Below, piece after piece: positions 16,097 to 38,455 of a DNA stretch of 64,000 bases. The stretch comes from Lactiplantibacillus xiangfangensis. GTDB lineage: Bacteria > Bacillota > Bacilli > Lactobacillales > Lactobacillaceae. The stretch is taken from positions 1 through 64,000 of the forward strand of contig NZ_JQCL01000035.1 in NCBI RefSeq assembly GCF_001438845.1, in the 5' to 3' direction. A model generated the notes under the pieces. The model saw nothing but the letters and a program-made list of their open reading frames with translations. It was not told the DNA's origin and did no database searches. A program made the translations under genes and the position numbers. Position 1 is the first letter of the stretch. The number at the start of each line of letters is the position of its first letter.

Positions 16097-16262
16097 TTCG
16101 TCAGTCAGAACCAGTGTGCTAAGGGGGGCGGTTTCAGCCAAAGTACGGTCTGAAACCTCACTTCAAGGCCGATACCCCACGTCTTTGAAGTGCCCCGCAA
16201 GATTAGTGCAAAGCCCGCCCACTAATCTTGCCGACACAGCACACCATTCTGCCTGCCTTCGC
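16097..16262 (-). repeat. Structured repeat unit A, copy 1
   Basis: A four-stem unit. The outer stem (GTGTGCT 16114-16120 with AGCACAC 16238-16244, extended outward by CAGAA/TTCTG and CAG/CTG) encloses three hairpins: GGTTTCAG 16130/CTGAAACC 16150; CACTTCAA 16159/TTGAAGTG 16185; GCAAGATTAGTG 16197/CACTAATCTTGC 16220. In minus-strand orientation the junctions read GTGTCGGCA, GCGGGGC and GAGG. It is homologous to the units at 28.1 and 38.3 kb, with different but still paired stems. I do not recognise the family. Confidence 0.85.
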
Positions 16263-16508
16263 TAAAATAGCCTTACTATTGATATTGCTATCAGCACCGA
16301 ACGGACCAGATTTTCATAATCGTAGCCGCCGTCCAAAGTACAAATTTATGTAAGTAACTCAAGGTTGAAAGCATTAAATTAGCCAGAAGCGACAATTTTA
16401 CCGACTTTGTTAGTGCTAGTATGTTGCCAATATTAGTTGTTATTCCTAAACCAATTGCTTCGTCAGGCAGAATAATCTTACTATTGTTATTTTCATCAGA
16501 TAATCGGA
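16263..16508. repeat. AT-rich linker between units A and B, locus I
   Basis: AT-rich sequence that includes two copies of a CTTACTATTG-type motif (16273, 16470) and a GCTTCGTCAGGCAG stretch (16457) like the flank of unit A. The CTTACTATTG motif also flanks the unit at 28.1 kb. No protein-coding potential is convincing. Confidence 0.55.
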
Positions 16509-16686
16509 GGCCGCAACTGATGACATCGGTCGTGAAGGTGGTGTTGGCGCGGCGCTTTTTTTGCCGGGCTTACACCACGGACGGTCCGGGACAATTACGC
16601 CTTTTGCAATCGTTCCGGGCGAGGGACTAGACCGCTCCCCAGGCTAGACCCGGTCCCACGACCGCATGTCATCAGTGGCGACCGGA
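16509..16686 (+). repeat. Structured repeat unit B, copy 1
   Basis: The outer stem ACTGATGACAT (16516) and CGGTCGTG (16527) pairs with CACGACCG (16657) and ATGTCATCAGT (16666). Inside are hairpins GTGGTGT/ACACCAC (16538/16572), CCGGGA/TTCCGG (16586/16613) and a CTAG-closed loop (16627/16644) with ACCGC. It has the same architecture as unit A and opposite orientation. A close homologue lies at 38.03-38.20 kb on the other strand. Confidence 0.85.
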
Positions 16687-16873
16687 ATAGCTTATAAACG
16701 CTAATTTTGTTGGTCCAGATATTGACGCAACAGTAACTAATCCTTAAATTTAAGTTTTAACCTTCAGTAAGTAAACGTTATTGACCGTTTAGTAAACATG
16801 AATTCACAGATTCCATTTTCTGGATTTTAGGCCAACAAAAAAGACCCGCCACACATGGCAGGTCCATTTGTAT
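16687..16873. other. Right flank of repeat locus I and downstream region of yidC
   Basis: Contains CAACAGTAACTAATCC and TTAAATTTAAGTTTTAACC, which recur near 28.39-28.43 kb. A short hairpin (GACCCGCCACA...GGCAGGTCC, about 16843-16865) lies close to the yidC stop and may act in termination. No gene seen. Confidence 0.5.
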
Positions 16874-17707
16874 TTAACGTTTATGATTGCGAACCGCACG
16901 TTTTCTTGCTTTATCAAGTGCTCGTTGACGATCGCGTTCTTTTTGCTTCTTTTCCGCCCGTTCGCGATTAATCTTGAATGGGTTTTGTAGTAACAAGGTC
17001 TGTCCAACTTGGAACGCGTTGGAGATCACCCAGTATAACGACAACGCAGATGGTACGTTGATGGCAGTGATTAAGATAACCACTGGCATTAAGTACGTCA
17101 TTGACGTCGTCATACCGTTTTGCTCTGGTTGCGACTTCATCGCTAACCACGAACTAGCAAACGTAAAGATCGCCGCTAGGATCGGTAAAACGTAGTACGG
17201 GTCTTTGTTACCTAATTGAAGCCATAGGAACGTTCCGCTCTTCAAGACTTGCGTCCGCCAGATGGCTTGGTACAACGCAATCAGGATTGGCAATTGAACT
17301 AGTAATGGCAACATGCTAGCCATCGGATGAACGCCGTGCTTAGCGTACAGCTGCTTCATCTCGGCTTGTAGTTTTTGCTGAGTTTCCACATCGCGTGAAG
17401 AATATTTCTTTTGAATCGCCTTCAACTGCGGTTGGATCTCTTGCATTGCTACCATGTTACGGGTTTGGAAGATCATCAATGGAAGAATGATGATCCGGAT
17501 AATCAACGTAAAGAGGATAATCCCCATCCCGTAACTTTGACCAAACAAGTTTGATAACCAAATAATCGCCCGTGAGAAGTTCAAGATGATTAAGCCATCC
17601 CAAAATCCGGTGCTCTTATCCGTAATCGGGGTATTGCTACACCCGGTCAAAACTAGTGCGATCGCTAGTACGGCCAGCATTGCCAGTATTCTTCTGTACT
17701 TTTTCAA
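16874..17707 (-). CDS. yidC: Membrane protein insertase YidC/OxaA
   Basis: Inserts membrane proteins with or without SecYEG. The 277-residue protein starts with a lipoprotein signal (LALVLTGCSN, lipidated Cys near residue 23), then has five membrane helices, and a strongly basic C-terminus (about 245-277) that contacts ribosomes. The start is TTG at 17707 with GAGGA upstream. It follows rnpA by 15 bases, the conserved rnpA-yidC-khpB order. Confidence 0.95.
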   Translation of the reverse strand: MKKYRRILAMLAVLAIALVLTGCSNTPITDKSTGFWDGLIILNFSRAIIWLSNLFGQSYGMGIILFTLIIRIIILPLMIFQTRNMVAMQEIQPQLKAIQKKYSSRDVETQQKLQAEMKQLYAKHGVHPMASMLPLLVQLPILIALYQAIWRTQVLKSGTFLWLQLGNKDPYYVLPILAAIFTFASSWLAMKSQPEQNGMTTSMTYLMPVVILITAINVPSALSLYWVISNAFQVGQTLLLQNPFKINRERAEKKQKERDRQRALDKARKRAVRNHKR

Positions 17708-17722
17708 ACGAATGTCCTCACT

Positions 17723-18067
17723 TTAATCATTGTCCAGCAGGTGCGCTAGCTTTAGCGCATGGCTTAGATAAGCTTTGGTTTCGGCTTGCGACTTACCGGC
17801 AACGGTTGGTCGGGCAATGACGAGGAAGTCGGCATCTTGTTTAAGCTGCGGCTTTAACTCGGTGATTGATTGCCGAACCCGGCGCTTGACCCAATTACGG
17901 GCAACGGCATTCCCAATCTTTTTACCGACTGAGATGCCCACCCGAAAATGGGGTTGCTCCGGTTTTTCCAAAACGTAAATGACAAATTGACGATTGGCAT
18001 ACGAGTTGCGGGTCTCAAAAACTTGCTGAAATTCAGTTTCCTTTTTCACCCGATATGATTTTCGCAT
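17723..18067 (-). CDS. rnpA: Ribonuclease P protein component
   Basis: A basic 114-residue protein that helps the RNase P RNA bind pre-tRNA. The RNR motif is visible as NAVARNWVKRRVRQSI. It begins MRKSYRVKKETEFQ, typical of the family. It lies between rpmH and yidC. Two hairpins separate it from rpmH, one of them terminator-like, so it may have its own promoter or rely on read-through. Confidence 0.96.
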   Translation of the reverse strand: MRKSYRVKKETEFQQVFETRNSYANRQFVIYVLEKPEQPHFRVGISVGKKIGNAVARNWVKRRVRQSITELKPQLKQDADFLVIARPTVAGKSQAETKAYLSHALKLAHLLDND

Positions 18068-18118
18068 AATCCATCTCCATGTGTGCGCTCAAGCTAACCT
18101 GAGCGAATTGCTACATAA

Positions 18119-18158
18119 CTTTACAGTCCTAGACTAATGAAGGTCTAGGACTGTAAAG
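18119..18158 (-). other. Perfect 16-bp hairpin between rpmH and rnpA
   Basis: CTTTACAGTCCTAGAC (18119-18134) pairs perfectly with 18143-18158 around an 8-base loop. On the minus strand it is not followed by a T-run, so it is not a classical terminator. It lies in the rnpA leader and may be a processing or stability element. Confidence 0.6.
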
Positions 18159-18182
18159 AAAAAGCCACTGATTATCAGTGGC
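18158..18182 (-). terminator. Terminator of rpmH
   Basis: Starting at the rpmH stop codon, GCCACTGAT and ATCAGTGGC form a 9-bp stem, followed on the minus strand by TTTTTCTTT. Confidence 0.8.
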
Positions 18183-18317
18183 CTATGCAGACAATACTTT
18201 TCTGCCTCGTTGGCGTCGACGGGCTAACACTTTACGGCCATTGCTGGTGCTCATCCGTTTGCGGAAACCATGGACACGTTGACGATGCCGCTTCTTTGGT
18301 TGGTAAGTTCTCTTCAT
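18183..18317 (-). CDS. rpmH: 50S ribosomal protein L34
   Basis: A 44-residue, very basic ribosomal protein beginning [18 protein letters not shown], the family signature, and ending in GRKVLSA. An in-frame ATG one codon earlier (18320) is also possible; GGAGG spacing of 7 favours 18317. It is divergent from dnaA across oriC, the usual Firmicutes arrangement. Confidence 0.97.
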
Positions 18318-18479
18318 CATGACACCTCCTTCTCCATAATGACATGAATCAATTCGATTAAGTCGTTATTTTCAAAACGCAGTCTAATCCTAAACGCATT
18401 TCCTGACTACTATAGCATATATTATTTAATTTGAAAACCGGAAAATAGAATTTTCACCCCTAAATTTGCGGAAATTTTA

Positions 18480-18780
18480 GTAGGGAACTCGTGAGTAACC
18501 TTGTGGATTGTCCAAACCTAACTTTCCGTTATTCGCAGGCCGTCCACAACCCTTTCCACAAAATCACGGGGTGTGATTAAGTTATGCACAGGGCATTTAT
18601 CTGGTGTGTATAACTCTTAGAAACGTTATCATAGCAACCCTAGTTTTAAACTTGTTTTTGTGGATAACTCTTAGTCATTTTATTTTCGAGTTTCTTTTCG
18701 ACAGCCTGTGTATATTCCGTAAACACCCTGTGAATTATTCTAACTTTCACTTGTCCACCTGTGGAAAACTATAAATGTTC
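18480..18780. other. oriC, DnaA-box cluster upstream of dnaA
   Basis: The rpmH-dnaA gap holds a perfect DnaA box TGTGGATAA (18659-18667), a one-mismatch box TTATGCACA (18582-18590) and several partial boxes (TTGTGGATT, TTTCCACAA, CTGTGGAAA). This is the upstream half of the bipartite Firmicutes origin and probably also mediates DnaA autoregulation. Confidence 0.88.
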
Positions 18781-18823
18781 ATGCTAAAATGGAATTACGT
18801 TTTTTAAGAAAAGGGGTATCCAC

Positions 18824-20185
18824 GTGCTGGAACTTAATAACTTATGGAATCTCATTAAGTTCTCTTTGGAACAAGATCTCTCAGATATCACGTTCCAAAC
18901 GTTTGTCGCGCCGGCAAAACCGCTCCAACTAGATAATTCCCAAATGACGATCGAGGTACCAACGTCTTTACACCGCGATTATTGGGAAAAAAATCTGGCC
19001 GCTAAATTTACAGACCTTGCAATGGAAGCGACCCACGAGCAGATTCGTCCGGTCATGATAACGGAAGAAGAACGTCAGCAGCTTACGAAAAATTCGCAAG
19101 CCGACACCGGTAACGTTGCGATTGGTAAATCGACCACCGCAACTACCCCCACATTTATGCGGGAAACGAAACTCAACCCGAAATATACATTTGATACTTT
19201 CGTGATTGGCAAGGGGAACCAAATGGCCCACGCCGCTGCGTTAGTTGTGTCGGAAGAACCCGGGACAATGTATAATCCGTTGTTTTTCTACGGGGGCGTT
19301 GGTCTGGGGAAAACCCACCTAATGCACGCTATCGGCAACAAATTATTGGAGACAGATCCCACTCGGAACGTTAAATACGTCACCAGTGAGTCTTTTACTA
19401 ATGAATTGATCAACGCGATCCAGACGAAGAAGCAAGAAGCGTTTCGAGAAGAATACCGCAACGTTGATCTTTTGCTGGTTGACGATATTCAATTCTTTGC
19501 CAATAAGGAAGCAACTCAAGAAGAGTTCTTCCATACATTCAACGCGTTATATGAAGATGATAAACAAATCGTCTTGACATCTGACCGATTGCCCAACGAG
19601 ATTCCGCAATTGCAAGATCGTTTAGTATCGCGCTTCAAATGGGGGCTATCCGTTGATATTACGCCGCCGGATCTCGAAACCCGGATCGCAATTTTACGGA
19701 ACAAAGCTAACTTGGAAAAAATCGAAATTCCCGACGATACGCTTAGTTATATCGCCGGCCAAATTGATTCAAACGTTCGTGAACTTGAAGGGGCTTTAGC
19801 CCGCGTTCAAGCTTATTCGAAACTAAACAACTCACGGATCACGACTAGTTTAGTCGCGGATGCGTTGAAGAGTTTGCATCTCAGCAGTAAACTATCAGAA
19901 GTCTCGATCCCCGTCATTCAGGAAAAGGTCGCCAAGTACTACCACGTTACAATGGCCGAGCTTAAGGGGAAAAAGCGCAATAAACAAATCGTGACACCAC
20001 GGCAAATCGCGATGTACCTGTCACGCGAATTAACTGATAGTTCGCTACCACGAATCGGTAACGAGTTTGGCGGTAAGGATCACACGACGGTTATTCACGC
20101 GTATGATAAAATCGAAGCGGCCCTTAAAACAGACCCAGAATTGCAAAAAGCAATCGGTGATCTGAAAGGACAGCTAAAAGCTTAG
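18824..20185 (+). CDS. dnaA: Chromosomal replication initiator DnaA
   Basis: Binds DnaA boxes and melts the origin. The 453-residue protein has an N-terminal helicase-loading domain, a linker (about 85-115), an AAA+ domain with Walker [11 protein letters not shown] and Walker [10 protein letters not shown], and the C-terminal DNA-binding domain with [15 protein letters not shown]. The start is GTG at 18824 with AAGGGG upstream. It is flanked on both sides by DnaA boxes. Confidence 0.98.
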
Positions 20186-20340
20186 TGTGGATAAAATTGA
20201 ATAAGTCCTAAAGTTTTCCACAACTTATGCACATGTGGAAAACTTTGTAACGACTGGCTTCTTTATACTTTTCCACATTACCCACCGCCCTACTATTACT
20301 ACGAACTTTTATTTATTAATCTATATCTAGGCTTGCGTCC
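20186..20340 (+). other. oriC unwinding region between dnaA and dnaN
   Basis: A perfect DnaA box TGTGGATAA (20186-20194) begins right after the dnaA stop. Further boxes are TTTTCCACA (20214), TTATGCACA (20225) and TTTTCCACA (20269-20277). The last is followed by a GC-rich step, the DnaA-trio array CTACTATTACTA (20290-20301) and an AT-rich tract (20303-20330). This is the order of the basal unwinding system known from Bacillus. Confidence 0.88.
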
Positions 20341-20360
20341 CTAGAAGAGAGGATCAACTT

Positions 20361-21500
20361 ATGAAATTCACGATCAATCGATCAGCCTTTATTAAAGAGT
20401 TAAATAACGTGCAACGCGCAATCTCATCAAAAACGACAATTCCGATTTTAACGGGGTTAAAATTAGACGTTGCTAGTGACGCCATTACTTTAACCGGTAG
20501 TGACGCTGATATTTCTATTGAAACTACGATTCCTGCTAACGATGACAACAATACGTTAGTCGTTGAAGAATCCGGTTCAGTCGTTTTACCAGCCCGGTTC
20601 TTCAGCGAAATTGTTAAAAAATTACCCGAAGATACCATGACAGTCGCCGTCGTTGATGGGTTCCAAACCCAAATCACTTCTGGCGCCGCTTCATTTACGA
20701 TCAACGGCTTAGACCCAGAAAACTATCCGCACTTACCTGAAATTGACACGACCAATACCATCACCTTAGCGGGTGACGTCTTTAAAGAATTGATCGGCCA
20801 AACCGTTATCGCAGTTTCTAATCAAGAAAGTCGGCCCATTTTAACGGGGGTTCACTTTATCTTGAAAGACGGCGAATTCCTCGCAGTTGCAACGGATTCA
20901 CACCGGTTAAGTCAACGTAAGATTAAATTACCAGAAGCTAATAATGCCGATTATGACGTGATCATCCCCGGAAAGAGTTTAACGGAACTATCCCGGATGA
21001 TTGGTGACGATAATCCAGACGTTCAGATGCGGTTATCAGAAAACCAAGTCCTATTTGTGTTAGGTAACACTTCGTTTTATTCCCGTTTACTCGAAGGAAA
21101 CTACCCGGATACATCGCGGTTGATTCCAAAGGATTCCAACACGACGGTCGAAATCGAAGCACCGGCTTTATCCGCTGCAATCGAACGGGCCTCACTGTTA
21201 TCCCATGAAAGTCGGAATAACGTTGTGCGCTTCTCCGTTAACCCAAGCGATAAAACCATTACGATTTTTGGGAACTCACCCGACGTTGGTGAAGTAACTG
21301 AAAAGCTGCAACCCGCTGAGTTAGATGGCGAAGAACTCGAAATTTCCTTTAACCCGGATTACATGAAAGAAGCCTTGCGTTCATTTGGCCAGGCCATGAT
21401 CAAGATTTCATTCACCATGGCACTCCGGCCGTTTACGCTGGTGCCAACTGAAGAAGGCGAAAACTTTATTCAGTTGATCACGCCGGTACGGACGTTCTAA
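20361..21500 (+). CDS. dnaN: DNA polymerase III beta subunit (sliding clamp)
   Basis: The ring-shaped processivity clamp for the replicative polymerase. The 379-residue protein has three repeated clamp domains; FTINRSAFIKELNNVQRAIS opens the first and the C-terminal LVTPVRTF-like ending (ITPVRTF) is typical. GAGAGGA precedes the ATG. A strong terminator follows, so dnaN does not run into the S4/recF unit. Confidence 0.97.
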   Translation: MKFTINRSAFIKELNNVQRAISSKTTIPILTGLKLDVASDAITLTGSDADISIETTIPANDDNNTLVVEESGSVVLPARFFSEIVKKLPEDTMTVAVVDGFQTQITSGAASFTINGLDPENYPHLPEIDTTNTITLAGDVFKELIGQTVIAVSNQESRPILTGVHFILKDGEFLAVATDSHRLSQRKIKLPEANNADYDVIIPGKSLTELSRMIGDDNPDVQMRLSENQVLFVLGNTSFYSRLLEGNYPDTSRLIPKDSNTTVEIEAPALSAAIERASLLSHESRNNVVRFSVNPSDKTITIFGNSPDVGEVTEKLQPAELDGEELEISFNPDYMKEALRSFGQAMIKISFTMALRPFTLVPTEEGENFIQLITPVRTF

Positions 21501-21528
21501 GTAGCTGAATAAATATACAAAGGCACCT

Positions 21529-21567
21529 AAAAAGGGCGTCATTTCTAATTGAAATGACGCCCTTTTT
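21529..21567. terminator. Terminator of dnaN
   Basis: Perfect inverted repeat AAAAAGGGCGTCATTTC / complement around a TAATT loop, ending in TTTTT. It is symmetrical, 28 bases after the dnaN stop. Confidence 0.92.
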
Positions 21568-21900
21568 GATTGGCATTAAGTGACTATAAGCGGTGATATA
21601 ACTAGCTCAAAGCAATGATGTAACTTTTGAAGTTCAACAAAATGAATAATTAAAATAGGCTCTTGAATACTAGTATGCATTCTTATTCGACCAAAAAAGC
21701 TTAACCAGCTAACATCCCGTTAGGTTGAAATGAATGGCGGCGTATGAAAATCGATTTACATTGATTTTTAGGGCAAAAAAACAGGTGATTTTATTAAAAA
21801 TCGCAAATTTTGGGAATTTTAGCAAATTTACCCCCCGGTTAGTACCCCAACATTAAATCAGCTTAAATCGTCTTAAAATGGCTCTGAGCACGGTTATAAA
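21568..21900. other. Intergenic, AT-rich, nothing recognised
   Basis: More than 300 bases between the dnaN terminator and the next promoter, with A/T-rich tracts and no coding potential or clear structure. Proximity to oriC might explain the base composition. Confidence 0.4.
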
Positions 21901-21929
21901 TTGAATTTTCATTAAAAAACAAGTATAAT
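21901..21929 (+). promoter_or_regulatory. Promoter of the S4-recF-gyrB operon
   Basis: TTGAAT (21901-21906) and TATAAT (21924-21929) are separated by 17 bases. It drives the S4 protein gene 79 bases downstream, and by overlap recF and gyrB. Confidence 0.75.
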
Positions 21930-22007
21930 ATAACCTGTTGAGGCGTGTCTTAAAGCACGCCACTACGACGCTGATAGCTTGTAAACGAAGGTAAGGCAGG
22001 TGACATT

Positions 22008-22241
22008 GTGAAACAGCCAGTAGATATTAGAACGCCATATATGACGTTAGGGCAACTCTTAAAAGAAGTCGCCATCATTGGATCAGGTGGTCAGGCAAAA
22101 TGGTTTTTGAAAGAAACAACCGTTCTTGTTAATGGTGAACCAGATGATCGGCGGGGACGTAAACTTTATCCAGGCGATACGATTGAAGTTGCGGACCACG
22201 GATCATTTTTTATTCGCGGCAATCAAGAAACGACTGATTAG
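22008..22241 (+). CDS. S4-domain RNA-binding protein (YaaA/RlbA type)
   Basis: A 77-residue protein made of a single S4 RNA-binding domain (TLGQLLKEVAIIGSGGQAKW, then VLVNGEPDDRRGRKLYPGD). It is found between dnaN and recF in many Firmicutes and thought to act on ribosomes, but its exact role is not settled. The stop codon is directly followed by the recF ATG, so the two are translationally coupled. Confidence 0.92.
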   Translation: MKQPVDIRTPYMTLGQLLKEVAIIGSGGQAKWFLKETTVLVNGEPDDRRGRKLYPGDTIEVADHGSFFIRGNQETTD

Positions 22242-25309
<3,068 letters not shown>

Positions 25310-25389
25310 TTTGCCAGGTGCGCTATTTAGCCTAGTTGGTCTAAACGCTAAGAGGACAACAACGGCAGTCAATGAAGGAGGATCTTGTT

Positions 25390-27951: not shown

Positions 27952-28007
27952 TATAGACATTAAACTGCAGCTGCTTTAAGTGGGCCTGCAGGTCATAACG
28001 ATAAGTA

Positions 28008-28055
28008 AACATCCCCTAAGTGGCCAGTTTAAGGCTACTTGGGGGATGTTTTTTT
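28008..28055. terminator. Terminator of gyrA
   Basis: Stem AACATCCCCTAAGT / ACTTGGGGGATGTT followed by seven T residues. Confidence 0.9.
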
Positions 28056-28119
28056 AATCTGCTAAAGGTTGAAAAGTCTAAAACTGCTATTAACACCGCA
28101 ACAGTAGCGATAGTTATTC

Positions 28120-28310
28120 CTGAATTATCCGCTCCGTCGGGTAAGTCCTGGTGTGCTATGGGGGACGGTCGCAGCCACACTGCGGTCTGCGACCTCGATA
28201 CAAAGCCGACAGCCCGCGTCTTTGTATCGCCCCGCAAGATTAGCAGACAAGAAACGTCTGCCAATCTTGCCGACACAGCACACCAAGACTACCCGACTGC
28301 GCTCAAAACA
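28120..28310 (-). repeat. Structured repeat unit A, copy 2
   Basis: The outer stem GTCGGGTA (28136)/TACCCGAC (28290) continues into GGTGTGCT (28150)/AGCACACC (28277). Inside are GGTCGCAG 28167/CTGCGACC 28187, CGATACAAA 28196/TTTGTATCG 28221 and GCAAGATTAGCAGAC 28234/GTCTGCCAATCTTGC 28256. Compared with copy 1, three of four stems have changed on both strands. Junctions GTGTCGGCA and GCGGGGC (minus strand) are identical. It lies between two terminators with no gene. Confidence 0.88.
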
Positions 28311-28500
28311 GTCTTACTATTGTTATTACTTACTGTCAGTGGTAACCGGACTCACTCACAAGTAGCTAAGTCGTATTAGTCTAATACTGATACAACAGTA
28401 ATCAGTCCCTAAATTTAATTTTCAACCTTTAGATATCCGTCTAAGGTTGCAAATTAGTTGTTTATAACCTAGTCCGGTTGCCACTGATTATCCGTCAAAA
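28311..28500. repeat. Remnant flank of the composite repeat, locus II
   Basis: Contains TCTTACTATTGTTATT (28313) and CAACAGTAATCAGTCC then CTAAATTTAATTTTCAACC, matching the right flank of locus I. Between them TCAGTGGTAACCGGACT (28338) corresponds to the outer arm of unit B, but the B core is missing. A second arm AGTCCGGTTGCCACTGA lies near 28471. Confidence 0.6.
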
Positions 28501-28574
28501 TAACGATTACTACTTTTACAATATTGACGGTGATTTTGGGCTTTTCGGACTTTTGAGAAAAATAACAAAGAAAT

Positions 28575-28633
28575 CAAAAAAGCCCTACTAAGCTGAGTTT
28601 GATTATCGCTAACCAAACTTTGCTTAGTAGGGG
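28575..28633 (-). terminator. Terminator of the LPQT surface protein gene
   Basis: On the minus strand CCCTACTAAGC pairs with GCTTAGTAGGG and is followed by CTTTTTTG, about 75 bases after the adhesin stop. Confidence 0.85.
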
Positions 28634-28706
28634 GTGGTGTCAACGCGTGAACGAGGTATTGTTGATATTGGGTTAAGGTTGCGATTGGGCAATCCGCCTT
28701 TCTGAA

Positions 28707-31700
28707 TTAGTGACGACGTAAATCAAGGTAACCAAGTCCGATACCAAAGAGGATTGCTAAGCAACCGATAATTGTGTCGATCATTGCGTTGTGATTCTCA
28801 TCGGTTTGCGGCAACTTTTCTGATGTTGAGGCGGTTGAACTTGGCTGTGCCTTGGCTTGAATCTGTGGGCGTACACGTTGAGCCGGTACAGCTGGCGCTG
28901 CGGGCACTGGCTTGCTCAGTGCTGGTGCGTTTGGCTTAGTTGGTTCGGTGACGCTAGGTTTCACTGGCGTCGTTGTTTCTGGCTCAGTCGGCTTGGTTTC
29001 CGGCTTAACTGGTTCAGTGACGCCAGGTTTTTCTGGTTCGCCGGGCTGACTCGGCGTTGTTGGCGTTACGGGTGGTGTCGGTTGACCAGGCGTTTCCGGT
29101 TCGTTTGGTTCGTTAGGGTTGCCAGGCTCACTAGGTTCATTAGGTTCACTAGGTTCTTCTGGTTCGGTAACCAAGTCTGGCCGATCAATCTCGGTGGTGG
29201 CACTACCGTCATTGTCGTTGTCGTCAGTGTAAAGTACGGCGTTGTCAAAGACGGCGGCACCATTTGCGGTATTGGTCTTTGTTTGATAGGTCAAGTCAAA
29301 GTCATTTGTAACGGTTCCTGCGACTTTAAAGGTCAGGGTGTGATCCGTTACCGTTACGGACAACGGTAACGTTTGGCCGGCCTCATCGATAGCTTTAGCG
29401 CTGTCAGTAACGTAAGTTTGGTTATTGCTGAAGGTATCGGTAATGACTGGATTAATTAAAGTATTGCCATTCGCATTAATACCAATGGTCCAATTAATGG
29501 TGGTCATGTCGTTGGGATCGTTCCAAGCGGCTTCTTTGGATACGTCAATTGGTACTTTGACTGTCGGCGGCGCTTCACGATCGATGGAGCTACTACCTTC
29601 CGCGTGATTGTTGTTATCGTCATCAACGATTGCGGCGTTGTCAAAGGTTGCCGCACCCGTGGCTTCGTTCGTTGTCGTCTGATAAGTTAACGTTAAATCG
29701 CTGCTTAATTCACCCGTAAACGTGATGGTCAGGGTTTGACCATTGATAGTGACGGTCGTTGGCACTTGGTTACCGTCGGCATCGACCGCTTTAGCACTGT
29801 CAGTAACGTAAGTTTGGTTGTTGCTGAAAACATCCGTTACGACGGGATTCTTGAGCGTATTGCCGTTAGTATTGATTTGCAATTGCCAATTAATGCGATT
29901 TTGGTCGTTAGGGTCAGACCAAGCGGCAGTCTTAGTCAGACTAATCGGATCTTTAGCTGGCTCAACCGTTGGCCCCTCGCGCTCGATCGAAGTGTTAGCC
30001 TCCGCGTGATGGTTAGCATCATCGTTGACGACCGCGGCGTTGGTAAAGGCGTCCGCACCCGTTGGGGTATTGGTGGTCGTCTGGTAGGCTAGTTGGACAT
30101 CGGTTGAGAATTCTCCTATCAGTTCGAAAGTTAACTGATGGCCGTTGACACTGGCGATAACGGGGATTTGGCCGGTAGTATCACGAGCCGTAACGCTATC
30201 AACAACGTAAGTCTGGTTATCACTTAATTGGTCGGTAATAACGGGGTTGTTTAATTGTTGACCATGGGTAGCAATGTTTAGGGCCCAGTTAATCTTGGTT
30301 TGGTCGTTAGGATCAAGCCAAGTTGCGGCCTTCGTCATGGTGATTGGCACTTCTGGTTCGGGTTCCCCAGGCGTCTCTGGCTCTTCAGAATCTTCGGTGA
30401 TTTCACGATCGATATCCGTGTTGGCCGCGGCCTGGTTGCCAGCGTCGTCCTCATAAACGGCGTCGTTAGCAAATTGTTCAGCCGAAGTCGGATCATTGGT
30501 TCTGGTTTGATAGGCGAGTTGAAAATCAGTCGTGTAACTTCCTGGAATCTTAAAGGTGACCTCGTTACCATCGACGGTCGCGGTAACTGGGATTGTTTCG
30601 TCCGTCGCGGTGACCGCAATAGCACTGCCAGGGATGAAAGTTTGGTTAGGACTCATGTGATCCGTGATGACCGGATTAACCAGCTGGTTGCCATTGGATG
30701 AAATCGTCAAATTCCAGCTGAGTTTGGTTTGATCATCGGGGTCAGACCAAGTCACAGCTTTAGCCATGCTGATTGGTGGCTTAGCTGGTTCAATCGTACG
30801 GTCGATTGTAGCGTCAGCGGAAGCTTCGTGACCAGCATCGTCCGTGTAGTTGGCATTGTTGGTAAAAGTTTCTAGCCCGCGAGTTGAAGTAATCGCACTT
30901 TGATAGGTCAGGTACAAATTAGTCGTAAAAGTGCCGACCGCCTTAAAGACAATCGAGCGGCCCGCCCCGCTGACACTAGTTGCCAGTAAAATTGGTTGGC
31001 CACTCGCAGTCGTCATCTTAGCGCTATTTGGCACGTAAGCCTGATTGTCGCTTAGATGGTCAACGATTTGCGGGTTAATGAGCTGATTATTATGTGCGTT
31101 GACCGTAATGTCCCAATTTAACTTAGATTGATCGTGTGGATCAGCCCAACTGACGGACTTATCCATGGTAACGGGTTCCTGAGGCGCCGGTTCACTAGGA
31201 CCCGGATTACTTGGGGCCGCTTCACGGGTAATCGTAGCGGCAGCGTTGGCTTGGCGGCCCTCGCTGTCACTATAATTAGCGTTGTTATTAAAGGATTCAG
31301 CACCGGTTGGTAACTTAGTTTGGGTCTGATAATCCAGCGTAATGTCTGATGTGAAGGCGCCGGATAGCTTAAAGGTCATACTATTCGTGAATAAACTTCC
31401 GGAAGCCGTTACGGCGACATTTTGACCCGCAGCGGTGGCGTGAACACTGCCAGCAACGTATTTCTGGTTGCTACTGAAAGTATCCTTAATGACCGGATTG
31501 GTCAGGGTGCCGCCGTTGTGGTTGATGGTTAATTGCCAGTTAATGACCGTTGGGTTTTTGGGATCGACCCAACTAGCAGTTTTACTCATTGAGATTGGTG
31601 CTGCTGGCGGGGCTTTGACCGGAACGTTAATTTTAAGCCAACCGTGTCGGTTAAGCGGGTTGTACTGAAAGTAGCGGTTAAATGTCATAACGCCGGTAGA

Positions 31701-32051
31701 ACTCCCCGTACCGATATGCACCGTGCCAATTGCAACGCCGCTACTGGTGTAGGCGGTAAAATCATCGTCGGCAGGGATGTAAACGTTGGGTGGCAGGGTG
31801 AAGGTCATGGTGTCACCGGCCCTAACGGTAACGCCGTTAGGAATACTCCAATTGTAATTGACGATGTATTCGCCGGGAGCTAGTTGAACGTCGTGCCCAA
31901 CGGTATTACCCTGAGCATCTTTGATGACGGCGCTATTCACGTCGACCCCCGTAGCTTGCACCTCACTTGCTCGACCAAGCAGGGGTGGACTCAGAATCAT
32001 GAGCGCTAGGCCGGTAACAGCTAGCAAAAAGAAGCGCCAAAACTTTTGCAT
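28707..32051 (-). CDS. LPQT-anchored repeat adhesin (collagen-binding-type domains)
   Basis: A 1114-residue cell-wall protein. A signal peptide (about 1-32, LAVTGLALMILSPPLLG) is followed by an N-terminal adhesin domain (to about 150). Then come six repeats of about 130 residues, each opening with a K..xW.DP.D....NW pattern (for example SKTASWVDP, TKAATWLDP, SKEAAWNDP), consistent with Cna-like domains stabilised by isopeptide bonds. A Pro/Glu-rich wall-spanning region and the sortase signal LPQTDEN, a hydrophobic segment and a basic tail complete it. The start is ATG 32051 with GGAGG 8 bases upstream. Ligand unknown. Confidence 0.92.
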   Translation of the reverse strand: MQKFWRFFLLAVTGLALMILSPPLLGRASEVQATGVDVNSAVIKDAQGNTVGHDVQLAPGEYIVNYNWSIPNGVTVRAGDTMTFTLPPNVYIPADDDFTAYTSSGVAIGTVHIGTGSSTGVMTFNRYFQYNPLNRHGWLKINVPVKAPPAAPISMSKTASWVDPKNPTVINWQLTINHNGGTLTNPVIKDTFSSNQKYVAGSVHATAAGQNVAVTASGSLFTNSMTFKLSGAFTSDITLDYQTQTKLPTGAESFNNNANYSDSEGRQANAAATITREAAPSNPGPSEPAPQEPVTMDKSVSWADPHDQSKLNWDITVNAHNNQLINPQIVDHLSDNQAYVPNSAKMTTASGQPILLATSVSGAGRSIVFKAVGTFTTNLYLTYQSAITSTRGLETFTNNANYTDDAGHEASADATIDRTIEPAKPPISMAKAVTWSDPDDQTKLSWNLTISSNGNQLVNPVITDHMSPNQTFIPGSAIAVTATDETIPVTATVDGNEVTFKIPGSYTTDFQLAYQTRTNDPTSAEQFANDAVYEDDAGNQAAANTDIDREITEDSEEPETPGEPEPEVPITMTKAATWLDPNDQTKINWALNIATHGQQLNNPVITDQLSDNQTYVVDSVTARDTTGQIPVIASVNGHQLTFELIGEFSTDVQLAYQTTTNTPTGADAFTNAAVVNDDANHHAEANTSIEREGPTVEPAKDPISLTKTAAWSDPNDQNRINWQLQINTNGNTLKNPVVTDVFSNNQTYVTDSAKAVDADGNQVPTTVTINGQTLTITFTGELSSDLTLTYQTTTNEATGAATFDNAAIVDDDNNNHAEGSSSIDREAPPTVKVPIDVSKEAAWNDPNDMTTINWTIGINANGNTLINPVITDTFSNNQTYVTDSAKAIDEAGQTLPLSVTVTDHTLTFKVAGTVTNDFDLTYQTKTNTANGAAVFDNAVLYTDDNDNDGSATTEIDRPDLVTEPEEPSEPNEPSEPGNPNEPNEPETPGQPTPPVTPTTPSQPGEPEKPGVTEPVKPETKPTEPETTTPVKPSVTEPTKPNAPALSKPVPAAPAVPAQRVRPQIQAKAQPSSTASTSEKLPQTDENHNAMIDTIIGCLAILFGIGLGYLDLRRH

Positions 32052-32448
32052 TATTGATTCCTCCAATCAATGCTTTTTCTTGTCAATTCGCACTAGGCTA
32101 TCTTGACAAACAAAATCTAGCACGTCGGGAATGACAACGATTACAGCGTTGATTCGTTTGTAAACCTGACAAATTGGTGGAATCGGTGCTACGAAGCGCT
32201 TCTTATTGCTAATTTAATAGCTTAAGCGGGAAGCCTGGTGACGATTAGGGGCGGTTGGCCCACGTGACCGGTTAAATAAAATTGTAAGTGATTATTTTTG
32301 AAATGATTGGGTGGTCTAGTTACTGGGTGAGTGAAAATGAGTTGGCAGTTAAAAAGCTGAAAAAGAGACGCGAGGCAAGGAGAGAAATTGCGTATTTAGA
32401 CTATGTAACGCATTCCAAAATCTTTTTAGTTAGTCGGCCGCCCCACCC
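32052..32448. other. Intergenic between adhesin and rpsF operon
   Basis: About 400 bases holding the adhesin ribosome-binding site and presumably its promoter on the minus strand, which I could not fix. No gene seen. Confidence 0.4.
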
Positions 32449-32477
32449 TTGCAACAAATTTATTTAGATGCTATACT
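32449..32477 (+). promoter_or_regulatory. Promoter of the rpsF-ssb-rpsR operon
   Basis: TTGCAA (32449) and TATACT (32472) are 17 bases apart. The 90-base leader that follows contains a weak hairpin (CTTGCTCTTC...GAAG). An S6:S18-binding RNA is expected here in many bacteria but I could not identify it with confidence. Confidence 0.65.
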
Positions 32478-32567
32478 TGTAATTCGTGAGTATCTAAGTA
32501 TCACTTAGCTTACTTTCCTTGCTCTTCAAAAAGAAGGGCCTGAAGTCCATAAGGAGGTGCAAATTTC

Positions 32568-32867
32568 ATGAGTGAATCAAAGAAATATGAAATTACTTAC
32601 ATCGTGCGTCCCGACATCGACGATGCTGCCAAGACAGCTTTAGTTGATCGTTTCGACAAAATCTTAACTGATAACGGTGCACAAGTAATTGATTCAAAAG
32701 ACTGGTCAAAGCGTCGTTTCGCATACGAAATCGGCGGTTTCACTGAAGGTACTTATCATATCGTAAACTTAACTGCGACTGATGACGCTGCCTTGAACGA
32801 ATTCGACCGTCTTTCAAAGATCAATGATGACATTTTACGTCACATGATCGTTAAACGCGAAGACTAA
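32568..32867 (+). CDS. rpsF: 30S ribosomal protein S6
   Basis: A 99-residue S6 protein with the typical opening [14 protein letters not shown] and the central [16 protein letters not shown]6 binds 16S rRNA as a pair with S18, encoded two genes downstream. AAGGAGG precedes the ATG. First gene of the operon. Confidence 0.97.
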
Positions 32868-32901
32868 TATTCGAAATTAAACTAGAGAGGAGCCCTTCTG
32901 C

Positions 32902-33522
32902 ATGATTAACCGTACAGTTCTTGTTGGCCGACTAACAAGAGATCCGGAATTACGTTATACGAACGGTGGTGCCGCTGTTGCGACATTTACCCTTGCCGTA
33001 AACCGTAGTTTCACGAACCAAAATGGTGAACGTGAAGCTGATTTCATTAGTTGCGTCATTTGGCGTAAAGCTGCTGAAAATTTTGCTAACTTTACTCATA
33101 AAGGTTCACTTGTTGGGATCGATGGCCGGATTCAAACCCGGAACTACGAAAACCAACAGGGACAACGAGTTTACGTCACAGAAGTCGTCGTTGATAACTT
33201 CTCATTATTAGAATCACGCGCAGAGTCTGAAAGACATCAAGCTGCAAATGGTGGTAGTGGTAACAACAATTACAACAATGGTGGTAATTCGAGTTACAAC
33301 AACAATAATAATAGTGGGTACAGTAATCAAGGCCAAAACGCTGCTCCTCAACAATCATCATCTAATAATAACAATAACAATCCTTTTGGTAGTGGAAATG
33401 GCAACAATGGGAATGCGACGAGCGCTGCGCCTTCAAGCAACGCTAATAACAATAACCAAGCCGATCCATTTGCCAACAATGGGGATCAAATTGATATCTC
33501 GGATGATGATCTACCATTCTAG
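32902..33522 (+). CDS. ssb: Single-stranded DNA-binding protein
   Basis: A 206-residue SSB. The OB fold (about 1-105) opens with [21 protein letters not shown] long disordered linker (about 110-195) is dominated by Asn, Gly, Ser and Gln. The acidic tip DISDDDLPF recruits partner proteins. The linker is longer and more Asn-rich than in many SSBs, which may favour condensate formation; that is inference. Between rpsF and rpsR, the conserved order. Confidence 0.97.
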
Positions 33523-33557
33523 TAGCTTAGCTACAGATATCGAGGAGGGAAATACCA

Positions 33558-33794
33558 ATGGCACAACAAAGAAGAGGTGGCCGTCGTCGTCGTAAAGTCG
33601 ACTTCATCGCCGCAAACCATATCGAATACATCGATTATAAGGATACTGACTTATTACGTCGTTTCGTTTCAGAACGTGGGAAGATTTTGCCACGTCGTGT
33701 AACGGGGACTAGTGCTAAGAACCAACGTTCTTTAACTATCGCCATCAAACGCGCACGGATCATGGGCTTATTACCATTCGTATCCGAAGAATAA
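33558..33794 (+). CDS. rpsR: 30S ribosomal protein S18
   Basis: A basic 78-residue S18 with the conserved [22 protein letters not shown] and [18 protein letters not shown] segments (partly quoted). GGAGGG precedes the ATG. Last gene of the operon, followed by a terminator. Confidence 0.97.
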
Positions 33795-33808
33795 TTCAGT
33801 TTGTAAGA

Positions 33809-33837
33809 ACCACAGCCTTAGGCGCTGTGGTTTTTTT
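33809..33837 (+). terminator. Terminator of rpsF-ssb-rpsR
   Basis: Stem ACCACAGC / GCTGTGGT with a 7-base loop and seven T residues. Confidence 0.93.
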
Positions 33838-34009
33838 GTGCCTCAAAAATGTTATTGATCGTGGCATAACGGCGCAAATGAGCTAACCCGATACGTCTCG
33901 CTGTGTTAGTTGTCCGGCGCCAATTTACTTTGACGAGTAAAGTCTGAAGCGCCGAGTGGATTGTGATAAAATATAGTTATTACTGAAGAATTATTGAGGG
34001 ATTTTTAAA

Positions 34010-36022
34010 ATGAAAAAATTTTTTTCGCGCGAAAAAATTCCATTTTTCTTGCAAAATCAACAGTTACGATTACTAGCGCTGGTCATTATGGGCCTATCGC
34101 TGATAACCCTAGTCACTGGCTTTTTAATGAACTGGATTTTTGGGACCATTATCTTGATCCTAATCATTATGGCGGGGGTCATGTCGTATAACACGTTGAT
34201 TGAGCTGAGTTCGAGCGCTAACGAGTACATTTCGGACCTATCGTATCGAATCAAACGTGGGGAACAGGAAGCGCTAATTCAAATGCCAATCGGGGTCATG
34301 ATTTTTAACGCCGATGAGACGATTGAGTGGGTCAATCCATACTTGCAGCGATATTTTGGTGACCAAGATGTCTTGGGCTATCGACTCGAAAATATTGATG
34401 CGGAACTAGCGGCAACCGTTAGTGCGCACCAAGAAGAACCCGCGACCATTCGCTGGAAAGATTACCAGTTCGATTTACGCGTCCAGCGGAGTACTAATAC
34501 GGTTTACATGATGGATGTAACCAAGTACGCGGAGTTGGCTAATCAGTTTGAAGATGAAAAGTTGGTCATTGGCCAAATTTTCTTGGATAACTATGATGAA
34601 ATCACCCAGTCAATGGCGGATACGGATATTTCTAACCTGAATAACTACGTCACGAACGAATTATCGAAGTGGACGCAGATGTTTGGGATGTATCTCAAGC
34701 GGCTAGACGACGACCATTTCTTCTTACTGGGGTATGCGAACAGTCTACGCCGGGTCGAGGAGAATAAGTTTCGGATTTTAGACCGCATTCGTGAGTCCAC
34801 CTCTAAGCAAAACTTCCCGTTAACGTTAAGTATCGGGATTGCTTATGGTGAACGCAATATGAACAACTTAGCCGACTTGGCCCAGAGCAATATGGACCTC
34901 GCCCTTGGACGGGGTGGGGACCAAGTTGTCGTTAAGGCCGAAGACGAACCAGCGCGCTTCTACGGTGGGAAAACTAACCCAATGGAGAAGCGAACCCGGG
35001 TCCGGGCGCGGATGATCAGTCAGACGTTACAAGAGTTAATGAACCAATCGGATCAGATTTTTGTACAGGGGCATCATCAGCCCGACATGGATGCGGTTGG
35101 GGCGTGCTTAGGCATTCGCCGGATTGCCGAGATGAATGGCAAGCAGTGTTGGATCGTCTTGGATGAACAAAACGTGCATTCCGATATTCAACGGTTACTC
35201 GACCAACTTAAATCGGATGAAAAGATCGAAGCTTCGATTATTTCACCCGCAGAAGCCTTAGAAAAAGCGACTGATCAAAGTTTATTGATCATGGCCGACC
35301 ATTCCAAGCCAAGCATTTCAATGTCACAGGCGCTGTATGAACGGCTTGAAAACCGCGTGATGATTATTGATCATCACCGCCGGGGCGAAGAATTTCCAGA
35401 AAACCCAGTTTTGGTTTATATTGAACCGTATGCATCTTCCACTTGTGAGTTGATTACGGAAATGTTTGAATATCAGTCACACGACGCTGAACCAATCAAT
35501 AAGATTGAAGCAACGGCTATGTTGACTGGGATCGTTATCGATACGAAGTCGTTCTCATTGCGATCCGGTTCACGGACGTTTGACGCGGCCAGTTACTTAC
35601 GGTCAGCCGGTGCGGATTCCTTGCTAGTTCAACAATTCATGAAGGAAAACGTTGATAGTTACCTCCAGCGTAATCACTTAATTGAATCGGTTGAATTTGT
35701 TAATCAGGATATGGCACTGTGTGTTGGGGAAGATGACCAGGTCTATGATCCGGTCACGGCGGCGCAAGCGGCTGATTCCTTACTGTCAATGTCCGGTGTG
35801 GACGCCTCCTTCGTGATTACGCGTCGTGAGGATGGTCGCATTGGGATTTCAGCCCGCTCGTTGGGTGAGATCAACGTGCAAGTTTATATGGAAAAATTGG
35901 GTGGCGGTGGTCACTTATCGAACGCCGCAACGCAAATTGAAGGTCAGTCCGTTGATGAAGTTAAACAGTCATTAATTGATTTATTGACCGCAACGGATGA
36001 ATCAACACCAGAATCTAATTAG
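34010..36022 (+). CDS. gdpP: Cyclic-di-AMP phosphodiesterase GdpP
   Basis: Hydrolyses c-di-AMP and so controls potassium and cell-wall homeostasis. The 670-residue membrane protein has two N-terminal helices (about 22-60), a PAS domain (about 85-150), a degenerate GGDEF domain (about 175-300) and a catalytic DHH/DHHA1 module with [23 protein letters not shown] and [19 protein letters not shown] precedes the ATG. It is followed after 11 bases by rplI. Confidence 0.96.
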
Positions 36023-36033
36023 GAGTGAGCAAA

Positions 36034-36486
36034 ATGCAAGTTATTTTCTTAAACGATGTTCGTGGTAAAGGTAAACGGGGCCAAATTAAAAACGTGCCCG
36101 ATGGTTACGCACAAAACTTCTTAATTAAAAAGGGTTTAGCTAAGGAAGCTACTAAGTCGGCGATTGCTACTTTAAAGGCGGAACAAAAGAACGAAGCGGC
36201 TAAGGCTGAAGAAGAATTAGCCGAAGCTAAAACGACTAAAACGGCCCTCGAAGCTGACGCAACGGTCGTAGAACTCAAAGCTAAGGCCGGAACGGATGGC
36301 CGATTATTCGGTTCCATTCCTAGCAAGCAAATTGCAACGGCGCTGGCTGATCAATATAACGTTAAGTTAGACAAACGTAAGATTGAATTACCAGATCCAA
36401 TTCGGGTCCTTGGTTATACCAACGTCCCAGTGAAATTACATCCAGAAGTTACGGCAAAAATTCGCGTTCACGTTATCGAAAAGTAA
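36034..36486 (+). CDS. rplI: 50S ribosomal protein L9
   Basis: A 150-residue L9 with the N-terminal domain [20 protein letters not shown], a long connecting helix and a C-terminal domain. AGGAG lies 8 bases before the ATG at 36034; an in-frame GTG at 36025 overlaps that site. Between gdpP and dnaB, the conserved order. Confidence 0.96.
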
Positions 36487-36501
36487 AAAAGGGGACCATA
36501 A

Positions 36502-37935
36502 ATGAACAACGATGTGCTAGATCAAACCCCACCACAAAATATTGAAGCTGAAAAAGCGGTTCTTGGGGCGATCTTCCTAAACAGTGACGCGCTTGTTGAA
36601 TCAATGGAGTTCGTCGAAGCGCAGGACTTTTACCGGCGCGCACATCAAATCATCTTTGCCAGCATGGTGACGTTGAATGATCGTGACGAGGCCATTGATG
36701 CGGTGACGGTCAGCGATTTACTGACGGCCCAAAATCAATTGGATGACGTTGGTGGGATGAGCTACATTGCGGAACTAGCCGGATCCGTTCCGACGGCGGC
36801 CAATGCCGGTTATTACGCGAAAATCGTTGCGCAAAAGGCAACGGTTCGGCGACTAATCAAGACGGCCACTGAGATTACCCAGAAGGCCTACACGGAAAAT
36901 GACGACGTGACAACGCTGTTAGATGACGCTGAACGAGACATCATGAATGTTTCTGAACAACGGAATCAGAGCGGGTTTAAGTCGATCAACGACGTGTTGA
37001 ATTCCACGATTGAAGAAATTGACCGGTTATACCAAAACGATGATGATATTACCGGGTTACCAACGGGTTTCACCGAATTGGACAAGATGACCGCGGGGCT
37101 TCAGCCGGATAACTTGATTATCTTGGCAGCCCGGCCAGCCGTTGGGAAAACGGCCTTTGCGTTGAATATTGCGCAAAACGTTGCGACGAAGACGGATACG
37201 ACGGTTGCTATTTTTAGTTTGGAAATGGGGGCCGAGTCGTTAGTTAACCGGATGCTTTGTGCGGAAGGTAGTATTGACGCCGGTCATTTACGGACGGGGC
37301 AACTGAATGAAGAAGAGTGGGAACACTTGGTGGTGGCCATGGGTAGTTTATCCAAGGCCAGCATTTTCATTGACGATACGCCTGGAATCAAGATGTCCGA
37401 AATTCGCGCGAAGAGTCGGCGGTTAGCGAAGGAACAAGGTAACTTGGGCCTAATCGTGGTCGATTACCTGCAACTGATCGAAGGTGGCAACACCGAAAGT
37501 CGGCAACAGGAAGTTTCTGAAATTTCGCGGCAAATGAAAAAGTTAGCTAAGGAATTAGGGGTTCCGGTCATCGCGCTGTCTCAATTATCACGTGGTGTGG
37601 AACAACGTCAGGATAAGCGACCAGTCCTATCCGACATTCGTGAATCCGGATCAATTGAACAAGATGCCGACATCGTAGCCTTCCTATACCGGGAAGATTA
37701 TTACCGGTCTGAAGACGACGATGACGGTGGCAACAACTTCAGTAATGGTGGCGGAGGCGGCGATTTCAACGGCGGCGATCCGCGCGATGATGATGCCTCT
37801 GAAGACGTCGGTGAAGTTGAAGTTATTATTGAAAAGAACCGTGCCGGGGCGCGGGGGACCGTTAAACTATTGTTCGTCAAACCGTTTAATAAGTTCTCGT
37901 CCGTTTCCTACGCACAGGACCCGCAACAGGGGTAA
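36502..37935 (+). CDS. dnaB: Replicative DNA helicase
   Basis: The hexameric fork helicase (called dnaC in Bacillus). The 477-residue protein has an N-terminal collar domain (about 10-110) and a RecA-like motor with ARPAVGKTAFAL, VDYLQLIEGG and SQLSRGVEQR. Between DYYRSED and GEVEVIIEKNRAG there is an inserted run of about 35 residues rich in Gly, Asp and Asn, near where the C-terminal domain contacts partner proteins. GGGGA precedes the ATG. Confidence 0.96.
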   Translation: MNNDVLDQTPPQNIEAEKAVLGAIFLNSDALVESMEFVEAQDFYRRAHQIIFASMVTLNDRDEAIDAVTVSDLLTAQNQLDDVGGMSYIAELAGSVPTAANAGYYAKIVAQKATVRRLIKTATEITQKAYTENDDVTTLLDDAERDIMNVSEQRNQSGFKSINDVLNSTIEEIDRLYQNDDDITGLPTGFTELDKMTAGLQPDNLIILAARPAVGKTAFALNIAQNVATKTDTTVAIFSLEMGAESLVNRMLCAEGSIDAGHLRTGQLNEEEWEHLVVAMGSLSKASIFIDDTPGIKMSEIRAKSRRLAKEQGNLGLIVVDYLQLIEGGNTESRQQEVSEISRQMKKLAKELGVPVIALSQLSRGVEQRQDKRPVLSDIRESGSIEQDADIVAFLYREDYYRSEDDDDGGNNFSNGGGGGDFNGGDPRDDDASEDVGEVEVIIEKNRAGARGTVKLLFVKPFNKFSSVSYAQDPQQG

Positions 37936-37948
37936 AACTAACAATCAC

Positions 37949-37987
37949 AAATGGTGCTTGAGACTTGGTCTTGAGCACCATTTTTTT
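37949..37987 (+). terminator. Terminator of dnaB
   Basis: Stem AAATGGTGCTTGAGAC / GTCTTGAGCACCATTT around a short loop, with seven T residues. Confidence 0.93.
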
Positions 37988-38019
37988 AGATTGAATTGTG
38001 GTCTAAAGAGGTTGAAGGC

Positions 38020-38200
38020 GATTCCGGTTGTCACTGATGACATGCGGTCGTGGGACCGGGGCTAGCCGGGGGAGCGGTCTAGCCCCTCGCCTGGAACACT
38101 TGCAAAAGACGCAATTGTCCCAGACTGTCCAGTGGTGTAAGGACGGAAAAGCACCGCCCAACACCACCATCACGACCGATGCCATCCGTGGCAACCTCCG
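38020..38200 (-). repeat. Structured repeat unit B, copy 2
   Basis: The outer stem GGTTGTCACTGATGACAT (38026) pairs with ATGCCATCCGTGGCAACC (38179), continuing as CGGTCGTG (38045)/CACGACCG (38171). Inside are GGGGCTAG 38058/CTAGCCCC 38079, CTGGAACACTTGC 38091/GCAATTGTCCCAG 38111 and GTGGTGT 38132/ACACCAC 38161. It is the reverse-strand homologue of the unit at 16.5 kb, with several compensating changes such as CTGG for CCGG. Confidence 0.87.
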
Positions 38201-38296
38201 AGCGTCCGATGAAAGCTAGATTTATCATAGGCAAACCCAGCTATGTTATAGTTGCTGACAAATTTAACCGGTTTATTTTAAAATAATCTTAGCGTA

Positions 38297-38455
38297 GTCG
38301 GCAGAACCAGCGAGCCGTGTCGGCACTGTTAGCTGGCGGCTTTTTGCCAGGTTACAGTGCGGGGCGACTTGGAAGACTCGTCCTTTGAGGCTTTCAAGCG
38401 AGGCGGAAGACCGTTCTTCCTGCAGCCGACCCCATGGCCCACTGATTTTGCCAGC
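38297..38455 (+). repeat. Structured repeat unit A, copy 3 (divergent)
   Basis: Outer arms GGCAGAACCAG (38300) and CTGATTTTGCC (about 38441) enclose CACTGTTAGCTGG 38324/CCAGGTTACAGTG 38347, CTTGGAA 38368/TTTCAAG 38392 and GGAAG 38405/CTTCC 38416. Junctions GTGTCGGCA, GCGGGGCGA, GCGAGG and CCCCATGGC match the other A copies, while nearly every stem sequence differs. This is the strongest covariation case. Confidence 0.8.

Follow-up and report, generated by a model that had tools for sequence, protein, structure and literature searches.

Mirror-image cloverleaf repeats of Lactiplantibacillus xiangfangensis as probable modules of a non-autonomous DNA transposon superfamily in Lactobacillaceae

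In a stretch of 64,000 nucleotides from Lactiplantibacillus xiangfangensis (assembly GCF_001438845.1, contig NZ_JQCL01000035.1, positions 1 to 64,000; referred to as the window), five intergenic repeats fold into an outer stem enclosing three hairpins. With a probability of about three in four, these folded repeats are parts of a superfamily of non-autonomous DNA transposons (miniature inverted-repeat transposable elements, MITEs) of the family Lactobacillaceae, the modules of which are kept by selection in transposing lineages. In the proposed element, two homologous four-way-junction (cloverleaf) modules, A and B, mirror each other inside the terminal inverted repeats CTAAAGGTTGAAA. The element would be moved in trans by an IS4-family transposase acting on its ends. 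Less certainly, selection in the transposing lineages would keep the modules because each, when single-stranded, acts in cis close to one end, perhaps as a structure for insulation or timing; the active form would be the minus strand of A and the plus strand of B, either as RNA or as DNA that replication or transposition has opened. Copies that stay in place would then decay.

A previous description made from the letters alone (the sequence-only reading) had listed units at 16097-16262, 16509-16686, 28120-28310, 38020-38200 and 38297-38455, each with an outer stem and three hairpins, and profile search and folding confirmed all five. Every unit folded better than all of 200 shuffles (z from -3.3 to -11.1, the least strong being the 38.3 kb unit), and the stem pairs that had been quoted, GGTTTCAG/CTGAAACC versus GGTCGCAG/CTGCGACC and CACTTCAA/TTGAAGTG versus CGATACAAA/TTTGTATCG, are correct. 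The grouping of the five into one family stands for the shared fold but not for a single set on one strand. Two module types are present, and the two units near 38 kb, a B at 38020-38200 and a divergent A at 38297-38455, are read from the minus strand. The element ends had been overlooked: the 16.5 kb unit lies inside an element with B only and the 28 kb unit inside an element with A only.

Modules A and B are about 130-180 nt long, and each forms a four-way junction. Their GC content is 46-70% against 45% for the window, so that the AT-richness usual for MITEs is absent. In all 26 distinct A-B composites at the loci compared, the order is A, linker and B, with a linker of 31-45 nt in 21 of them and of 18, 90, 90, 197 and 240 nt in the remaining five; other loci contain A alone, B alone or A facing a second A. 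A covariance model of module A, R1, was built from 34 copies, and a second model, R2, represents module B. R1 also recognises B in reverse orientation: of the 114 matches that it gives in the window's genome, at least 7 coincide with a B match of reversed strand, indicating that B is A in mirror image. At 62 chosen loci from several genera, neighbouring modules point towards each other in 42 of 43 pairs. Longer repeats of about 800-890 bp, with a module at one side plus a further part, were seen in one genome (G302, loci L257-L263).

The ends of the mobile unit were defined by aligning young copies, which gave the terminal inverted repeat CTAAAGGTTGAAA...TTTCAACCTTTAG. Complete copies are typically about 540 bp long; 12 of 19 spans in the genomes G001 and G009 measure 535-549 bp, and the other seven, all in G001, are shorter through internal deletions. 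The exact 13-base end was detected in seven of eight genomes of the genus that were searched, the window's own included (9 + 9 copies in the latter, 38 + 45 in G009 and none in G005), while its backward control gave 0 or 1 per strand. In G001 and G009, 13 of the 19 spans with an exact end on either side are flanked by a perfect direct repeat of 7-9 bp, compared with 1 of 342 mismatched flank pairs. When up to two end mismatches were allowed in the window's genome, a duplication was found in 10 of 23 spans (control 4/506), and G012 gave 2 of 7 (control 0/42). Pooled over the three groups, an exact duplication of 6 bp or more flanks 25 of 49 end-to-end spans versus 5 of 890 controls. A stretch of 3676 bp flanked by two ends in G009 (L169) was not accepted as an element because, by eye, it holds glycosyltransferase-like and other genes. 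Coding by the elements themselves is unlikely, judging from their covarying stems and length changes.

A candidate source of the mobilising activity was identified in G001, a genome of the same genus, where identical 13-base ends enclose 1567 bp with a 457-amino-acid transposase, and ATAGGAG stands on both outer sides. The transposase belongs to the IS4 family (NF049925, 460 bits against a cut-off of 250), and this insertion sequence supplies the linked protein family that the sequence-only reading had proposed to look for. At E<=1e-50, 4 of 21 genomes of the genus have the transposase; one of these carries it in two pieces, another with an internal stop. The IS4-family insertion sequence (locus L168) has, by eye, a terminator-like hairpin and a T run just inside its left end (427-500). 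In other genera, the core CTAAAGGTTG was found exactly within 260 nt outside the module in 6 of 86 flanks (permuted motif, mean 0.01 and maximum 1; opposite orientation, 0) and with one mismatch in 11 of 86 (permuted, 0.58 and maximum 5; opposite, 2). An alignment-based search for terminal repeats covered eight loci from other genera, two of which are one and the same place, and gave nothing with a duplication.

These ends also bear on the idea that the hairpins are recognised as single-stranded DNA by a Y1 (RAYT) transposase, as in REP/REPIN systems. REPINs and BIMEs are mobile units of two inverted structured units with many copies per genome, built from short simple hairpins and moved by the Y1 transposase. 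The mirror pairing of structured units in the present element resembles that of REPINs, as does its high copy number, and a bulged base is visible by eye in the conserved hairpin. The Y1 transposase (PF01797) was, however, not found in the window's genome by a search that was positive in 5 of 14 control genomes, and the terminal repeats together with duplications of 7-9 bp are in keeping with a DDE transposase. A REPIN-like origin is thus highly improbable.

Covariation in the modules was tested with our own script after R-scape, not with R-scape itself, using G-statistics with average-product correction and a null of alignments in which the tree and the branch-wise substitutions are preserved. 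The set from two genomes comprised 121 copies of A and 75 of B. Over all pairs, 7 column pairs reached significance in A and 3 in B, all inside the proposed structure and none elsewhere; in a smaller set the significant pairs inside the structure were 5 of 5 (A) and 2 of 2 (B). When the test was restricted to the structure, 14 of 69 (A) and 5 of 67 (B) pairs were significant, and all four helices of A were supported. The conservation of structure with covarying stems therefore holds with many more copies against a tree-keeping null. Among 111 distinct modules from the 62 chosen loci, 50 of 51 pairs change on both sides, and sliding the partners by 1 to 3 columns reduced the double-changed cells from 1404 to 183-248, in an alignment fitted to the structure, which favours pairing. 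In one hairpin, the letters of AGCC and CGGTCT are at least 90% conserved among 49 distinct modules that come from other genera and were picked by R1 and not by this motif, while many of the 62 loci had been picked by it.

Selection is not the only process that could produce such paired changes. Template switching in imperfect palindromes copies one arm onto the other and might have generated much of the covariation through mutation alone. Between G000 and G012, 16 orthologous modules were taken (at least 85% identical and of the same direction; 1059 pairs). Double changes affected 20 pairs, of which 12 keep a Watson-Crick pair, while about 5 doubles are expected if sites are independent. This excess, arising despite nearly neutral drift, is in accord with arm copying, as is the lack, on average, of better conservation in unpaired than in paired columns. 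On the other side, the AGCC and CGGTCT letters, most of which pair mutually, are kept across genera, and the covariation extends to all four A helices in the structure-restricted test. As the source of much of the covariation, arm copying within palindromes appears rather unlikely; for part of the signal it is a rival to selection.

In the same orthologues, single changes between Watson-Crick pair and wobble numbered 39 and 41 for either strand, and changes between Watson-Crick pair and mismatch 19; changed sites amounted to 148 of 2151 paired and 61 of 659 unpaired positions. Resident copies are thus nearly free to change, with some compensation. On the trees, pair-breaking exceeded pair-restoring changes on terminal branches (150:80 for A and 134:44 for B) more than on internal ones (75:57 and 37:36), an excess that could also reflect a lag of compensation. 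Since resident copies drift nearly neutrally, selection is placed mainly in the lineages that are still moving. At two sites compared between G000 and G012 (L029 versus L222 and L030 versus L208), the element has apparently flipped in situ between the species, the copy at the same locus being the best match on the opposite strand (88 and 85% identity for the modules of L029, 84% for A of L030). Among 27 orthologous sites, several hold different copies in the two species, as if repeatedly hit or rewritten.

The two strands of the modules differ in folding. The minus strand of A folds better than the plus strand (mean -96.2 versus -83.9 kcal/mol), and the plus strand of B better than the minus strand (mean -100.0 versus -89.6 kcal/mol), the minus strand of A and the plus strand of B being homologous. 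When modules from several genera are taken together, 96 of 119 fold better on the strand opposite to R1. Wobbles among shared pairs favour the minus strand in A by 139 to 84 and, over genera, the strand opposite to R1 by 265 to 122. Selection would probably act on a single-stranded form.

Several observations count against the transposon reading or against parts of it. The strand preference is real, but it is partly due to a few fixed wobble positions: in B the wobbles show hardly any preference (79 to 75), and where pairs are mostly Watson-Crick the counts are 133 to 94, 18 pairs supporting the preferred strand and 16 the other. On average, unpaired columns show no better conservation than those in stems, both in other genera (0.70 versus 0.69) and in the window's genome (0.81 versus 0.84 for A, 0.84 versus 0.89 for B). 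Promoter-like sites in the linkers are not conserved, and promoter scans of A-B elements of G001 and G009 detected no such site there. Of the 86 flanks from other genera, 75 have no recognisable end. At E<=1e-50, the IS4-family transposase was detected in 4 of the 21 genus genomes but not in that of the window, where movement in trans is accordingly not seen. No cloverleaf module was seen in the G001 insertion sequence and an A-less form exists at four loci, from which it follows that at least one module is dispensable. The A-less form is represented in the window by the B-only element at 16358-16767, the deletion junction of which is matched at three other loci within four edits. The four loci are most simply explained by the spread of one derivative; repeated deletion is also possible, differing duplications having been checked for two of the four. 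Because the A-deleted form occurs at four loci with a matching junction, deletion derivatives were rejected as proof that the modules are needed.

The structure might instead have been adopted by the host, with copies transcribed and each serving the cell, for instance in stabilising mRNA 3' ends or as a family of regulatory RNAs. The strong covariation and the strand preference would suit such a role, and so would the genomic surroundings. Among 91 element clusters at loci of the window's genome, the flanking genes are convergent for 43, tandem for 42 and divergent for 3 (3 unresolved), while all neighbouring gene pairs in the same loci are 67 convergent, 94 tandem and 23 divergent; one of the 91 overlaps a long reading frame given by a simple ORF caller. 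A terminator-like hairpin reads into the element in 25 of 153 distinct end flanks from genus loci versus 3.0 in shuffles, and lies on the other strand in 12 of 153. The position behind genes also counts in favour of the transposon reading. A report on pneumococcal repeats likewise describes enrichment behind genes, most strongly for one repeat, SPRITE (PMC3049150). Promoter-like sites were detected in the linkers in 5 of 22 cases towards B and in 3 of 22 towards A, compared with a mean of 1.3 and a maximum of 4 in shuffles. The sites are, however, neither conserved nor present in the linkers of the two scanned elements, and a stand-alone RNA with its own promoter, for which the support is weak and mixed, was not adopted; a transcript of some kind may exist. 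In addition, orthologues have accumulated changes at paired and unpaired sites alike with no strand preference among wobbles, copies at the same site are often cut down or different, and 254 of 301 genomes of the family gave no match at the threshold used. We therefore regard a host-adopted RNA as improbable. The sequence-only reading had proposed selection on structure, as an RNA or as a DNA hairpin recognised by protein. The maintenance of structure is borne out, while stand-alone RNAs or host recognition hairpins are not supported, both because the units are internal modules of an element with inverted ends and target duplications and because orthologous resident copies change nearly neutrally, with equal wobbles for either strand.

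The superfamily is abundant but restricted in its range. In the window's genome (2.99 Mb, 103 contigs), the 114 R1 matches have E<=0.01 and come from the 150 candidates that were scored out of 1102, the weakest being near 30 bits; a simple DNA search gave 83 candidates for A and 92 for B, of which the best 40 each were scored. Counting the window's own genome, R1 matched 18 of 21 genomes of the genus, with 1 to 148 matches each, and R2 matched 12 of the 21. Within the family, matches were obtained in at least 47 of 301 genomes and at least 8 of 40 genera, again including the own genome, figures that are lower bounds since only 11 candidates were scored per genome. The genera among the matches listed are Levilactobacillus, Companilactobacillus, Secundilactobacillus and Lactiplantibacillus, together with Lactobacillus records. 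The repeats are thus not limited to a single strain but present in other genomes of the genus and family, and the covariance model has yielded many further copies in Lactobacillaceae. A fuller R1 search of fourteen chosen genomes gave 1 to 149 matches each, with 80 or more in eight of them, several from food-associated genera. In a class sample of 299 genomes, including at least two others of the same family, matches were found only in the window's own genome and in one of the 298 others. The latter genome, which belongs to a different family of the same order, holds a single cloverleaf-like match of 56 bits (G430:C5:98820-98934, about 1221-1335 of L403), with no end motif within two mismatches around it and no second match in G430 at the threshold. 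A plasmid search with one G001 element found no match. Among viral contigs, one match was obtained for one motif, and the IMG/VR contig concerned (L396, 5.8 kb) holds the hairpin motif, possibly as an integrated copy.

A search of the whole window against Rfam release 15 detected one tRNA only, with no match above the gathering threshold for the units, in agreement with the view that no named family has this form. At permissive thresholds, one A-only and one A-B element gave only matches far below the thresholds of the families. No published description of the repeat was found in the literature, as judged by titles and the beginnings of abstracts; the genome paper of L. brevis CD0817 counts 214 interspersed repeats and, in the passage concerned, does not describe them (PMC6534642).

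A folded MITE is a known kind of element; what is new is a mirror pair of covarying four-way junctions common to a bacterial family. The BOX and RUP repeats of Streptococcus pneumoniae are similar in being non-coding, tightly folded and provided with inverted ends, BOX being also modular, and they are discussed as MITEs of a sort that are moved by the transposases of resident insertion sequences (PMC3049150). Compared by their description there, they differ from the present element, which has two homologous mirror-image four-way-junction modules, tree-tested covariation and ends matching an IS4-family element, and which occurs in 8 of 40 genera of one family; the streptococcal repeats are described as very infrequent outside the closest relative (PMC3049150). 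QMITE2 of Coxiella burnetii, as presented in a review of MITEs, is likewise such an element; it has direct repeats of 7-9 bp and a transcript with a predicted stable fold, but its core is 113-145 bp and its terminal repeats are 23-29 bp long, and the passages describing it do not mention covariation (PMC10969869). The difference from REPINs and BIMEs lies in their short simple hairpins and their Y1 transposase, for which no gene was found in the window's genome. The IS4-family insertion sequence of G001 (NF049925) shares the 13-base ends and a 7-bp target duplication, but encodes a transposase and has no visible cloverleaf.

A bolder suggestion, possible but doubtful, is that the cloverleaf represents a new class of transposon-borne cis-acting fold, formed by single-stranded RNA or DNA, present once per end and family-wide, and obligatory in transposing lineages. 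If so, the fold might control access for a trans-supplied transposase or protect the element against read-through, and a DNA parasite that lacks its own gene would be maintaining an RNA-like object. The high copy number provides a natural experiment on a question mostly posed for RNAs, whether selection on structure acts in each resident copy or only in moving copies. The case is also a warning that covariation by itself does not prove a host RNA gene.

The modules in the window were located by profile, folding and covariance model. At the first locus, module A (16092..16266, plus strand) is preceded by a possible degenerate left terminal repeat, CTAAAGTATGAAAG, at 16026..16039 on the plus strand, proposed from its likeness by eye to CTAAAGGTTGAAAG and without a significance test; no right end was recognised around this module. 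The neighbouring B-only element (16358..16767, plus strand, 410 bp), identified by terminal repeats with 1 and 2 mismatches, has lost module A, of which remnants of the flanks remain at 16440..16499 (plus strand), and contains module B at 16506..16686 (plus strand). Comparison of its flanks revealed the target-site duplication TAAGTAA, at 16351..16357 on the left and 16768..16774 on the right. At 38 kb, module B (38023..38199) and a divergent module A of the subtype with CCTCGCTTGAAAGCCT (38289..38465) lie on the minus strand; a possible degenerate terminal repeat, CTAAAGAGGTTGAAGG, was noted by eye at 38003..38018 (plus strand), and clear ends of this A/B pair were not found. At the remaining locus, no target duplication is recognisable around the A-only element (28062..28432, plus strand, 371 bp), which has both terminal repeats exact, module B deleted and module A at 28124..28306 (plus strand). 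This element directly follows a terminator-like hairpin behind gyrA (28007..28051, plus strand). Also adjoining gyrA, on the minus strand at 28707-32066, is a gene for a large predicted surface protein of 1119 amino acids with an isopeptide-forming fimbrial domain.

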